Source: an uncultured Aliiroseovarius sp. (lineage in GTDB: Bacteria; Pseudomonadota; Alphaproteobacteria; Rhodobacterales; Rhodobacteraceae). Taken from it: a stretch of DNA of 64,000 nucleotides. Location: positions 62,001 to 126,000 of the forward strand of contig NZ_CANLNB010000005.1 in assembly GCF_947492455.1 (NCBI RefSeq), in the 5' to 3' direction. Numbering within the stretch: position 1 is the stretch's first letter; each line of letters starts with the position of its first letter. Both the position numbers and the translations under genes were made by a program. A model generated the notes under the pieces. The model made no database searches. It worked only from the letters and a program-made list of their open reading frames with translations, and had not been told where the DNA came from. Positions 5,430 through 8,833 of the stretch are shown piece by piece.

Positions 5430-7826
5430 ATGAGCAGCATTGAGAATGACGACCTGATTGATGATTCCGATGACGGGATGAACACGCCGAACGTGCCGCT
5501 GTCGCAGCGCGCGATGGGGGCGGCGCTGGGGGCTCGGTCTGCCCCCTATCTGGAGGGTCTGAACCCCGCCCAGCGGGATGCGGTCGAGGCGTTGCATGGT
5601 CCGGTTCTGATGCTGGCAGGCGCGGGGACGGGCAAGACCAAAGCCTTGACCACACGTATCGCGCATCTGCTGACCACCGGGTCGGCGCGGACCAATGAAA
5701 TCCTTGCCGTGACCTTTACCAACAAGGCCGCGCGCGAGATGAAGGAAAGGGTCGCCGGGCTGCTGGGGCAGACGGTCGAAGGCATGCCGTGGATGGGCAC
5801 TTTCCACTCGATTTGCGTGAAGCTCTTGCGCCGTCACGCCGAGCTGGTCGGGCTGAAAACCAACTTCACCATTTTGGACACGGACGACCAAATTCGGCTG
5901 CTGAAACAGTTGATTGTGGCCAACAATATCGACGAAAAACGCTGGCCCGCGCGGCTGTTGTCCGGCGTGATCGACAATTGGAAAAACCGCGCATGGACGC
6001 CGGAAACGCTGCCCGCGTCCGAGGCGCAGGCCTTCAATGACCGAGGGCCGGAACTCTACGCCCAATACCAAGAACGCCTGAAAACACTCAATGCCTGTGA
6101 TTTCGGCGACCTGCTACTCCACATGGTCACAATCTTCCAGCAGCACGACGACATTCTGGCCAAGTATCAAAGCTGGTTTCGCTACATCCTCGTCGACGAA
6201 TACCAGGATACCAACGTCGCCCAATACCTGTGGCTGCGGCTCTTGGCAGCGGGACATAAAAACATCTGCTGCGTAGGTGATGACGACCAGTCGATCTATG
6301 GCTGGCGTGGGGCCGAGGTGGGCAATATCCTGCGGTTTGAAAAGGATTTTCCGGGCGCCAAGGTGGTCCGGTTGGAACAGAACTATCGCTCGACCGCGCA
6401 TATCCTTGCCGCGGCGTCCGGCGTGATTGCGGGCAACGAAGGGCGTCTGGGAAAAGAGCTGTGGACCGAGGCGGAAGGCGGCGAGAAAGTCCGCCTGATT
6501 GGCCATTGGGACGGCGACGAAGAAGCCCGCTGGGTCGGGGAAGAAATCGAGGCGATGCAGTCAGGCACAAGGGGCAGGGCGGGGATGTCTTTGGACGATA
6601 TGGCCATCCTTGTGCGTGCCTCGCACCAGATGCGCGCCTTCGAGGATCGCTTCCTGACCATTGGCTTGCCCTATCGCGTGATCGGCGGCCCGCGCTTCTA
6701 TGAACGGCTCGAAATCCGCGACGCGATGGCCTATTTCCGCTTGGCCGTGTCGCAAGACGACGATCTGGCGTTTGAGCGCATCGTCAATACGCCCCGGCGG
6801 GGGCTTGGCGACAAGGCGGTGCAGACGATCCAGATGCTTGCCCGCACCAATGGCGTTTCGCTGGTCGAAGGCGCGCGGATCGCGGTGGACAGCGGGGCGA
6901 TCAAGGGCAAGGGCGGCAAGGGGCTTGCTGAACTTGTCGGCAACCTCGACCGTTGGTTCAACCAACTGCGCGCCGAGGAAGACACCCATATCGAACTGGC
7001 CGAGATGATCCTTGAGGAATCCGGCTACACCACGATGTGGCTGAACGACAAGACGCCCGAGGCACCCGGTCGGCTTGAGAACCTCAAGGAACTGGTAAAG
7101 GCGCTGGAAAGCTTTGAAAACCTTCAAGGATTCCTAGAGCATGTCAGCCTGATCATGGACAATGATACGGAAGACGCGGAAGAAAAGGTCACCATCATGA
7201 CCCTGCACGCGGCCAAGGGGTTGGAGTATCCCGCCGTGTTCCTGCCGGGTTGGGAAGATGGGCTGTTTCCGTCCCAGCGCTCGATGGATGAAAGCGGGCT
7301 CAAGGGGCTCGAGGAAGAACGACGGCTGGCCTATGTAGGCATCACGCGGGCCGAGGAGGTCTGCACGATTTCCTTCGCCGCCAACCGCCGCGTCTATGGT
7401 CAATGGCAGTCGCAATTGCCTTCGCGTTTCGTCGATGAACTGCCCGAGGCGCATGTCGAGGTGCTGACCGCGCCGGGTCTTTATGGGGGCGGCTATGGCG
7501 GCATGTCAGGCGATTACGGCGGGTCGCGTCTGGAAGAGAAAGCCAGCCGTGCCGACGCCTATAACTCGCCCGGCTGGAAGCGCATGCAGGCGCAAACTGC
7601 GCGTGCTCAATCCAATGGTGGCAAGGCGCGCGGCATTGTGATCGACGCAACCGCCGTGTCGTCGTTCACCCAAGGCGACCGCGTGTTCCACACCAAGTTT
7701 GGCTATGGCACCGTGATGGGCATCGAGGGCGATAAGCTGGATATCGAGTTCGATAAGGCCGGGGCCAAGAAAGTCGTCTCCAAGTTCATCGTGCCAGCCG
7801 CGCAGGCGGGCGACGTACCCTTCTAA
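5430..7826 (+). CDS. uvrD: ATP-dependent DNA helicase UvrD/PcrA
   Basis: A superfamily 1A 3'-5' helicase of 798 residues, acting in nucleotide excision and mismatch repair and in clearing protein from DNA. Visible motifs in order: Q-motif region LNPAQRDAV (44-52), Walker A AGAGTGKT (63-70), TFHSICVKLLR, Walker B VDEYQDTN (about 255-262), GDDDQSIYGWRGA, LEQNYRST, TLHAAKGLEYPAVF and motif VI AYVGITRAEE. The C-terminal 70 residues form the small Tudor-like tail of PcrA/UvrD (GDRVFHTKFGYGTV). A 40-residue acidic N-terminal extension precedes the helicase core. It is monocistronic on the plus strand and runs towards the antisense hairpin array at 7851-8166, whose nearest hairpin can serve as its terminator. 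Confidence 0.94.
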   Translation: MSSIENDDLIDDSDDGMNTPNVPLSQRAMGAALGARSAPYLEGLNPAQRDAVEALHGPVLMLAGAGTGKTKALTTRIAHLLTTGSARTNEILAVTFTNKAAREMKERVAGLLGQTVEGMPWMGTFHSICVKLLRRHAELVGLKTNFTILDTDDQIRLLKQLIVANNIDEKRWPARLLSGVIDNWKNRAWTPETLPASEAQAFNDRGPELYAQYQERLKTLNACDFGDLLLHMVTIFQQHDDILAKYQSWFRYILVDEYQDTNVAQYLWLRLLAAGHKNICCVGDDDQSIYGWRGAEVGNILRFEKDFPGAKVVRLEQNYRSTAHILAAASGVIAGNEGRLGKELWTEAEGGEKVRLIGHWDGDEEARWVGEEIEAMQSGTRGRAGMSLDDMAILVRASHQMRAFEDRFLTIGLPYRVIGGPRFYERLEIRDAMAYFRLAVSQDDDLAFERIVNTPRRGLGDKAVQTIQMLARTNGVSLVEGARIAVDSGAIKGKGGKGLAELVGNLDRWFNQLRAEEDTHIELAEMILEESGYTTMWLNDKTPEAPGRLENLKELVKALESFENLQGFLEHVSLIMDNDTEDAEEKVTIMTLHAAKGLEYPAVFLPGWEDGLFPSQRSMDESGLKGLEEERRLAYVGITRAEEVCTISFAANRRVYGQWQSQLPSRFVDELPEAHVEVLTAPGLYGGGYGGMSGDYGGSRLEEKASRADAYNSPGWKRMQAQTARAQSNGGKARGIVIDATAVSSFTQGDRVFHTKFGYGTVMGIEGDKLDIEFDKAGAKKVVSKFIVPAAQAGDVPF

Positions 7827-7846
7827 ACGCATCAGGCAATCTGAAA

Positions 7847-7888
7847 AGAAAAACGGCGCCGCTCGGGAGGAGGAGAGCGACGCCGTTT
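7847..7888. terminator. Terminal hairpin of the CcsR array, likely terminator for ccaF1-CcsR and uvrD
   Basis: The hairpin nearest uvrD pairs AAACGGCG (7851-7858) with CGCCGTTT (7881-7888) and GCTC with GAGC around the loop motif. On the minus strand it is followed by TTTTTCTTTT, a good intrinsic terminator for the ccaF1-CcsR transcript. On the plus strand, 25 bases after the uvrD stop, it is followed by the weaker TTTCCTATTT. Confidence 0.7.
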
Positions 7889-8168
7889 CCTATTTGGTCG
7901 GACCTCTGGGAGGAGGAGCGAGGTCCGGCGCTGTGACCTGGGTCGGGAGGAGGTGACCCACGTCAAATCGGGTTGTTCCTGGGAGGAGGGTGGAACGCCC
8001 CGAAATTTGGGGGTGCGGTGATGTCAGGGAGGAGGAAGACATCACCGCGGCCCAAGGACTGTCAGGGAGGAGGGCGACAGTCCGAAGATTTTGGGCGGCG
8101 AGATCAGGGAGGAGGAGAGACCTCGCCGCCATTCAGTTCACCGCCGGGAGGAGGAGGGCGGGGAACAG
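7849..8168 (-). ncRNA. CcsR / cuckoo-type sRNA array: eight hairpins with CCUCCUCCC loops
   Basis: On the minus strand, directly behind the DUF1127 gene, eight hairpins each display CCUCCUCCC in the loop. On the plus strand the loop motif GGGAGGAGG starts at 7865, 7908, 7945, 7981, 8027, 8065, 8107 and 8146. The flanking arms differ in every copy but always pair: 8141-8145/8157-8161 with 8136-8139/8163-8166; 8094-8102/8122-8130; 8056-8063/8076-8083; 8015-8025/8038-8048 (11 perfect pairs); 7968-7979/7992-8003; 7934-7944/7955-7965; 7899-7906/7920-7927; 7851-7864/7875-7888. This matches the CcsR1-4 RNAs of Rhodobacter sphaeroides (the cuckoo RNA family), stress-induced sRNAs cut from the 3' end of the ccaF1 transcript; that species has four copies, this locus eight. 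The loop contains the anti-Shine-Dalgarno core CCUCC. Confidence 0.85.
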
Positions 8169-8172
8169 AAAC

Positions 8173-8388
8173 TCAGTTGCCGTAGACGGCCATGCGGGCA
8201 ATCAGGCGGATCGAACCGCGACCGATACCCAAATCGTTCAGCTCACGATCGCTCAGGTTGCTCAGCTCCTTGACGGTCTGGCGATAGGCCTTGCGCGTGG
8301 CGTAGTCGTCTTTCCAACCAGCAATCAAGGAGACGAACCGGTCAGCCAGGCTTGCATGGGCCAGAATGATTTCAGATGCGTGTGCCAT
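8173..8388 (-). CDS. ccaF1: DUF1127 RNA-binding protein, CcaF1-like
   Basis: A 71-residue protein whose C-terminal half is a DUF1127 domain (LSDRELNDLGIGRGSIRLIA, residues 45-64). Length, domain and position directly upstream of CCUCCUCCC hairpins match CcaF1 (RSP_6037) of Rhodobacter sphaeroides, described as an RNA-binding protein that helps mature the CcsR sRNAs and affects RNA turnover. The array starts within ten bases of its stop codon, so protein and sRNAs share one transcript. A heat-shock-type promoter lies about 100 bases upstream. I am confident in the domain and locus identity; that the biochemical role is the same here is inferred from synteny. Confidence 0.88.
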   Translation of the reverse strand: MAHASEIILAHASLADRFVSLIAGWKDDYATRKAYRQTVKELSNLSDRELNDLGIGRGSIRLIARMAVYGN

Positions 8389-8833
8389 TGCACTTACTCA
8401 CTTTTGTTCGCAGATCTCTGCGGGTTGGGTGCCCGTACCGTTGGGCAAAACTCTTCTTGTTAGCGACAACGGTGTCGCTGTGAGGCAAACATGGGGTGTA
8501 TGCTGCAAATGCACAATACCTTGGGAAAACAAACCCGTCATGCGTCTGGTGCATAGGTGGATTCGCTAATAAAATAGGCGCTTAACCGCCCTTGGGCTAT
8601 GTTTCGCTGCTATATGCTGCAGGGCAGAAATTTCACTGTGTTGGGTGCCGTCGCGTCAGTTTGGGGCCTTATGTTCTGGCAGTTGGAATGCGCGCTTTTC
8701 ATCAGAGTAAAGCAGAGTGCTCCGGTGCCAAAAAAGTTGTCCTTGATTCTCATTTTCTTTGGGCTTGTGGATTCGCCTCTTGCGCCTTCCACGAAAGTCG
8801 CCAAGTAAAGAGGTCAGGATTAAGGAGACTCCT
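8389..8833. other. Intergenic region between ccaF1 and mrp
   Basis: Divergent promoter region. The left part holds the ccaF1 promoter and its 5' hairpin. The right part (8580-8830) is less G+C-rich than its surroundings and contains overlapping short open frames on both strands that I do not believe are genes. It ends with the mrp ribosome-binding site (AAGGAG, 8822-8827). I see no convincing promoter for mrp. Confidence 0.6.
8489..8516 (-). promoter_or_regulatory. Candidate RpoH-type promoter of ccaF1-CcsR
   Basis: On the minus strand TTGTGC (8516-8511), 16 bases, CCATGT (8494-8489), within CCCCATGT, resembles the alphaproteobacterial heat-shock sigma consensus (CTTG ... CCCCAT-T). The predicted start, about 8482, would place a perfect 7-base hairpin (AGCGACA 8462-8468 / TGTCGCT 8473-8479) at the very 5' end of the message. 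The R. sphaeroides homologue is transcribed from an RpoHI/RpoHII promoter. Confidence 0.45.

Follow-up and report, generated by a model that had tools for sequence, protein, structure and literature searches.

A compact ccaF1-CcsR operon with eight anti-Shine-Dalgarno hairpins in Aliiroseovarius, a typical member of its family

The window (the whole 64-kb stretch of DNA analysed here) carries on its minus strand a ccaF1-like gene, whose 71-aa product matches the DUF1127 family PF06568 with 42.8 bits against a cut-off of 23.3 (E 4.4e-11), and, 3' of this gene, between 7849 and 8170, a row of eight hairpins, each with the identical loop CCUCCUCCC (Table 1). CcaF1 of Rhodobacter sphaeroides is likewise given as a protein of 71 aa in a passage of PMC10253847. 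The stop codon of the ccaF1-like gene lies 18 nt from the first loop nonamer. The exact nonamer CCTCCTCCC occurs in eight copies on the minus strand of the array and nowhere else in the 64 kb; the whole genome (3.09 Mb) contains 14 exact copies, eight of them inside 290 nt of the array, compared with 10 copies of the reversed control pattern.

Table 1. Features of the ccaF1-CcsR-type locus, in the order of the minus strand (coordinates are those of the window).
Feature	Coordinates	Strand	Remarks
RpoH-like candidate element TTGTGC-N14-CCCCATGT	8489..8516	-	about 100 nt upstream of the start codon
ccaF1-like gene, 71-aa DUF1127 protein	8173..8388	-	PF06568
Whole array	7849..8174	-	two Rfam ar14 (RF02344) matches
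Hairpin 1	8132..8170	-	loop nonamer 8146-8154
Hairpin 2	8094..8130	-	loop nonamer 8107-8115
Hairpin 3	8056..8083	-	loop nonamer 8065-8073
Hairpin 4	8007..8055	-	loop nonamer 8027-8035; outermost pairs weakly conserved
Hairpin 5	7968..8003	-	loop nonamer 7981-7989
Hairpin 6	7934..7965	-	loop nonamer 7945-7953; outer four pairs weakly conserved
Hairpin 7	7899..7927	-	loop nonamer 7908-7916
Hairpin 8	7849..7890	-	loop nonamer 7865-7873; stem enters T-rich tract (to 7844)

All eight nonamers lie in hairpin loops of the RNAfold structure, with an unpaired probability of 1.00, and the 331-nt array folds at -154.9 kcal/mol, compared with -98.1 +/- 4.9 kcal/mol for 100 dinucleotide shuffles (z = -11.6). 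The 5' arms pair with their own 3' arms at a mean of -18.2 kcal/mol and with foreign arms at a mean of -6.1 kcal/mol, the two ranges touching at their ends (strongest foreign pair -13.8, weakest own pair -13.4 kcal/mol); thus the stems differ from one another, yet each is complementary to itself. The initial annotation of this DNA had described eight minus-strand hairpins that expose one nonamer on stems individual in sequence but complementary, and both parts of this description are borne out, positions included.

Among the 21 genomes of the same genus, the window's own included, 20 contain at least three spaced nonamers, the exception being 87% complete. These 20 arrays are collinear in their alignment (A2); eight exact nonamers are kept in 16 of them, and eight hairpins are called in 19 when one mismatch is allowed. 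Covariation was counted on A2 using the structure taken from the window's own fold. In this count 90.6% of the alignment cells are paired, compared with 37-49% after sliding of the 3' partners. Changes on both sides are seen in 44 of the 93 pairs, compared with 25.9 +/- 2.6 in shuffles, none of the 500 shuffles being as high. Such covarying stems uphold the earlier claim of a selected RNA structure. Pairing is poorly preserved in helices 4 and 7 of the count (77.8% and 54.5%), which form the outer portions of hairpins 4 and 6, and some pairs in these portions are therefore probably not real.

A covariance-model search, one of the checks suggested with the initial annotation, found the Rfam family ar14 (RF02344) twice in the array, at 7849-7971 with 76.7 bits and at 8051-8174 with 63.6 bits (gathering score 58.8), and no other ar14 match at E <= 0.001 in the genome. 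In a sample of the family with one genome per genus, 87 of the 295 genomes have at least three exact, closely spaced nonamers, a pattern biased to exact loops and short gaps; a CcaF1-like ORF lies upstream of 82 of these 87 arrays, with a median of 21.5 nt from its stop codon to the first loop. The ar14 scores above the gathering score, the DUF1127 partner and the recurrence of this layout agree with the proposed match to the ccaF1-CcsR family. Among 60 pattern-negative genomes, 52 have an ar14 match at E <= 0.001, three of them above the gathering score, so that many arrays escape the exact pattern and such RNAs may be present in most of the family. A class-wide search of 385 genomes, five of them in the family, found the exact nonamer triple in none of the 380 outside it, which says little about other families, since three exact nonamers at a set spacing were required.

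In its elements the locus resembles the ccaF1-CcsR1-4 operon (CIN1) of R. sphaeroides: a gene for a 71-aa DUF1127 protein, then same-strand hairpins with anti-Shine-Dalgarno (anti-SD) loops and a terminator, and, as a candidate, an RpoH-like promoter motif. For that operon, passages of PMC10253847 give the layout, the RpoHI/RpoHII promoter, the terminator and processing by RNase E, and describe CcaF1 as an RNA-binding protein that influences CcsR maturation. According to passages of PMC10253847 and PMC8625941, cleavage of the ccaF1 transcript in its 3' part yields four CcsR RNAs, and passages of PMC7866481 and PMC8307010 describe the CcsR RNAs as cut by RNase E from a longer transcript and bound by Hfq.

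The array can also be compared with the Rfam ar14 RNAs NfeR1 and SmelA075/SmelA099 of Sinorhizobium, which belong to the cuckoo family and have the same loop nonamer in each hairpin on variable stems. The AbcR (alpha-r15) sRNAs are another family with fewer hairpins and are not known to have a DUF1127 partner. Like the window array, AbcR RNAs have anti-SD motifs in unpaired regions; passages of PMC7143759 describe these motifs and the regulation of transporter mRNAs by AbcR, and NfeR1 of S. meliloti as silencing mRNAs in trans via redundant anti-SD loops. NfeR1 has its own RpoD promoter, according to a passage of PMC10746234, whereas the window array sits behind a ccaF1-like gene. The ar14/NfeR1 RNAs are described with two to four hairpins in passages of PMC4504443 and PMC3927594, whereas the window has eight, placed 3' of the coding sequence within one operon; a longer array was not found in the published passages on cuckoo RNAs.

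With both strands of the window counted, only the RpoH-like candidate element matches TTG.{15,19}CCCCAT.T. The pattern TTG.{15,19}CCCAT.T is kept in 15 of the 17 aligned upstream regions of the genus, genomes G295, G299 and G307, in which the gene was not located, being left out of this alignment. The element resembles the RpoH2 site CTTGCC-N15-16-CCTATCT given in a passage of PMC4843759; compared with the RpoHI/RpoHII sites of R. sphaeroides, for which a passage of PMC10673084 gives TTG and TAT, it has the TTG, but CAT in place of TAT. The NfeR1-type RpoD promoter CTTAGAC-N17-CTATAT, a criterion that concerns the NfeR1 gene and not the hairpin fold, was not found with up to three mismatches between 8572 and the array. 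Its nearest match, with three mismatches, lies upstream of ccaF1 (8601-8572, minus strand), and seven such weak matches occur in the window, compared with 2.5 expected. Two further sequences were noted on the minus strand of the upstream region. The 17 aligned regions share a palindrome-like TATGC-N7-GCAT (8540-8555), possibly a regulator site, at a distance of 23 nt upstream of the -35-like element; AGCGAC-N6-GTCGCT (8462-8479), just 3' of the presumed transcription start, where the different bases of the relatives look paired too, is possibly a 5' protective hairpin.

At the other end of the locus the stem of hairpin 8 runs into the T-rich tract and, judged by its sequence, therefore looks like a Rho-independent terminator too. 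At least four T stand close behind the last hairpin in all 20 same-genus arrays and in 65 of the 87 family arrays, but behind inner hairpins in 32 of 658 cases, so that the last hairpin usually resembles a terminator as well. On the plus strand, an ORF of 798 aa (5430-7844, UvrD/PcrA-like by eye) stops 17 nt from the T tract of the array; its read-through would yield an RNA that carries GGGAGGAGG eight times, in complement to every loop of the array.

Two close relatives of R. sphaeroides, Cereibacter johrii and C. azotoformans (the latter under the title Luteovulum azotoformans), each have eight loop-bearing hairpins in four pairs (spacing 39,66,37,76,39,74,39 and 39,66,38,76,40,73,40, respectively). 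Their clear pairs are separated by gaps of 66-76 nt, whereas the gaps of the window array are almost even (39,42,38,46,36,37,43, i.e., 36-46 nt); in both relatives the terminator-like hairpin lies further down and lacks the nonamer, whereas that of the window bears it. Two further hairpin-like stretches without the nonamer were noted by eye in C. johrii (L169, 3120-3200), the last at the terminator position, and are perhaps a fifth pair with decayed loops. Among other named loci, C. ovatus and Rhodobacter capsulatus have 8 hairpins and C. changlensis 13. The initial annotation had taken the eight hairpins for twice the four known in R. sphaeroides. That 'four', however, counts RNAs, one of which, RS0680a, has two stem loops, each with an anti-SD motif, as described in a passage of PMC3927594. 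Hairpins were very probably mistaken for RNAs in the claimed doubling, a judgement drawn from this passage and the Cereibacter relatives rather than from the R. sphaeroides 2.4.1 locus.

A comparison of copy numbers, also suggested with the initial annotation, does not set the window array apart. Array size in the family sample ranges from 3 to 26 hairpins, with eight as the most frequent number (23/87). A scan of named genomes, biased to relatives of the query proteins, with a few species represented twice and R. sphaeroides absent, gave 79 CcaF1 loci with 4-17 hairpins, where eight (23 loci) comes second after ten (31 loci) and seven is found in 8. Since eight is an ordinary size in the family, neither of the two explanations offered for extra copies is needed; dosage becomes superfluous, and different targets set by the differing stems find no support, the loop being conserved while the stems covary freely.

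The way in which such arrays grow can be read from their spacing and stems, in raw counts uncorrected for shared ancestry. Even-numbered gaps are longer on average than odd-numbered ones in 70 of the 79 named arrays (median difference 21.8 nt) and, with a median of 10, in 51 of the 69 family-sample arrays that have the gene nearby. Averaged within arrays, stem similarity is 0.474 and 0.472 at lags 2 and 4, 0.404, 0.426 and 0.401 at lags 1, 3 and 5, and 0.437 at lag 6. Longer even gaps and higher similarity at lags 2 and 4 indicate that a two-hairpin unit is the usual module. Giant CcsR-type arrays have 26 (L138, genome G165), 17 (L141, G050), 14 (L139, G272) and 17 hairpins (L140, G107), and those of G165, G050 and G272 are tandem repeats of a three-hairpin unit, with a lag-3 similarity of 0.70-0.82. 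Stems at least 85% identical within the array occur in 34 of the 87 family arrays. Within a distance of six hairpins, no pair of stems in the window array reaches 85%, and the mean similarity is 0.26-0.38 per lag tested; together with the even gaps this points to an old, compacted array, in which the two-hairpin spacing is so blurred that cutting sites cannot be read off. The A/U content of hairpins versus linkers proved unusable as a marker of RNase E sites, as the minimum-energy stems absorb most linkers. Between genera the hairpin number varies over the whole range of the sample, the DUF1127 partner and the terminator mostly staying put. CcsR/cuckoo arrays may tentatively be considered adjustable rows of identical anti-SD loops, built by duplication of a two- (sometimes three-) hairpin module, in which loop number and not stem identity is selected, although we would put this reading somewhat below an even chance.

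With the anatomy, homology, covariation, promoter-like motif, terminator-like end and candidate sites observed here, the window locus can with considerable confidence be considered a ccaF1-CcsR operon of the CIN1/cuckoo, Rfam ar14 type, working through pairing of its loops with Shine-Dalgarno (SD) regions; for transcription, cutting and target repression the models are R. sphaeroides and S. meliloti. By analogy with these, a promoter of the RpoH stress-sigma-factor type would give one transcript encoding the DUF1127 RNA-binding protein and carrying the eight hairpins in its 3' part, with hairpin 8 doubling as terminator. RNase E, aided by CcaF1, would cut the single-stranded linkers and release small RNAs of at least one hairpin, whose loops exposing CCUCCUCCC would pair with purine-rich SD regions (GGAGGAG and longer) and reduce the translation of selected mRNAs, of which many serve transport and central carbon metabolism. 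All eight loops would be interchangeable copies, and the stems would only hold the loop open, their sequence drifting freely provided that pairing is maintained; such drift would also prevent mispairing between neighbours. This loop-SD mechanism is likely by homology and plausible by sequence.

The earlier suggestion that the loops could compete for ribosome-binding sites agrees with the distribution of extended SD candidates: GGAGGAG-N3..11-ATG has 32 matches in the genome (31 distinct sites), compared with 5 for the reversed pattern. Proteins were scanned for 30 of the 32 matches (29 distinct sites), and the candidate sites include those of pyruvate dehydrogenase E1 alpha (pdhA), dihydrolipoyl dehydrogenase, the succinate/malate-CoA ligase beta subunit, four TRAP subunits, an oligopeptide ABC ATPase and SoxA; others have no family match, and some lie within genes. 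Strong ribosome binding by itself may account for the GGAGGAG sites. In R. sphaeroides, flhR is a reported target. The sites of pdhA and dihydrolipoyl dehydrogenase fit the effect of CcsR1-4 on the pyruvate dehydrogenase complex reported in passages of PMC8625941 and PMC8307010. Within the genus, 15 of 20 genomes have a pdhA site with at least 7 nt of complementarity to the loop, compared with 0 of 20 for the next gene of the operon. Across the family, where 27 of 30 pattern-positive and 29 of 30 pattern-negative genomes had pdhA (the positive L291 being counted despite a wrong start codon), at least 7 nt were found in 12 of 27 and 6 of 29, respectively, and pairing energies gave a Mann-Whitney p = 0.23; this contrast is weak because 52 of the 60 pattern-negative genomes still have an ar14 match. 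The idea that pdhA is kept as a target because of the array is thus unsupported by the family contrast.

Runs of three hairpins with CCTCCTCCC are also present in 57 viral contigs of IMG/VR (L368-L424), e.g., at 251-371 of L407. The ar14 gathering score is reached by 17 of 19 viral loci chosen from the 57, mostly on contigs of 57-65 kb. In 40 of the 57 loci one homologous helicase-like ORF ('helicase' by eye) lies 32-183 nt from the array; among the other 17, several resemble plain low-complexity repeats. One viral query of 321 nt gave no match among GenBank phages.

Of the other readings of the locus, the one deserving most attention holds that the array acts in cis, as a 3' UTR by which the ccaF1 mRNA is stabilised or controlled, or as a site of autoregulation bound by CcaF1, the loops being protein-binding sites and not antisense elements. 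It draws on the closeness of the arrays to the gene (the median of 21.5 nt) and on the RNA binding of CcaF1 and its effect on CcsR maturation in R. sphaeroides (PMC10253847, in passages). The same loop, however, serves trans-acting NfeR1 of S. meliloti, an ar14 RNA, through redundant anti-SD motifs, as passages of PMC7143759 describe, and it adjoins a helicase gene in viral contigs; it is also perfectly complementary to extended SD sites over-represented before ATG (32 vs 5). A purely cis role is accordingly improbable, although not negligible.

Still less credit can be given to a recent amplification to eight copies for higher dosage in the lineage of the window, which we regard as very unlikely. 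Tandem duplication does take place elsewhere, as the highly similar stems in 34 of the 87 arrays and the repeated three-hairpin unit of the 26-hairpin array of G165 attest, but the window stems up to six apart are all below 85% identity (mean similarity 0.26-0.38), eight hairpins in 19 of 20 same-genus arrays make the number old, and eight is an ordinary size in the family. That the array is a chance or low-complexity repeat, a CRISPR-like array or a coding repeat is practically dismissed: the short nonamer is regularly spaced and an 80-aa open frame crosses the array (7890-8132, minus strand), but the folding energy (z -11.6), the preference of arms for their own partners and the covariation oppose this, and indels between species in A2 are not in threes. 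CRISPR arrays have identical direct repeats longer than about 20 nt and non-palindromic spacers; here the units are palindromic and the repeat, of only 9 nt, lies inside the palindromes, and this candidate was rejected.

The window array is thus a well-conserved, typical, compact and old member of the ccaF1-CcsR operons. The comparison suggests that the 'four' of the literature on CcsR counts RNAs, not hairpins, and shows eight loop-bearing hairpins to be a standard layout in the family. The alignment of 20 species offers well-supported structures for the mapping of cutting sites, and the genera with 3 to 26 otherwise similar loops allow a direct test of repeat number against the strength of the sRNA. 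If the reading of these arrays as adjustable rows of loops is true, loop number would be a built-in gene-dosage dial for one small RNA.
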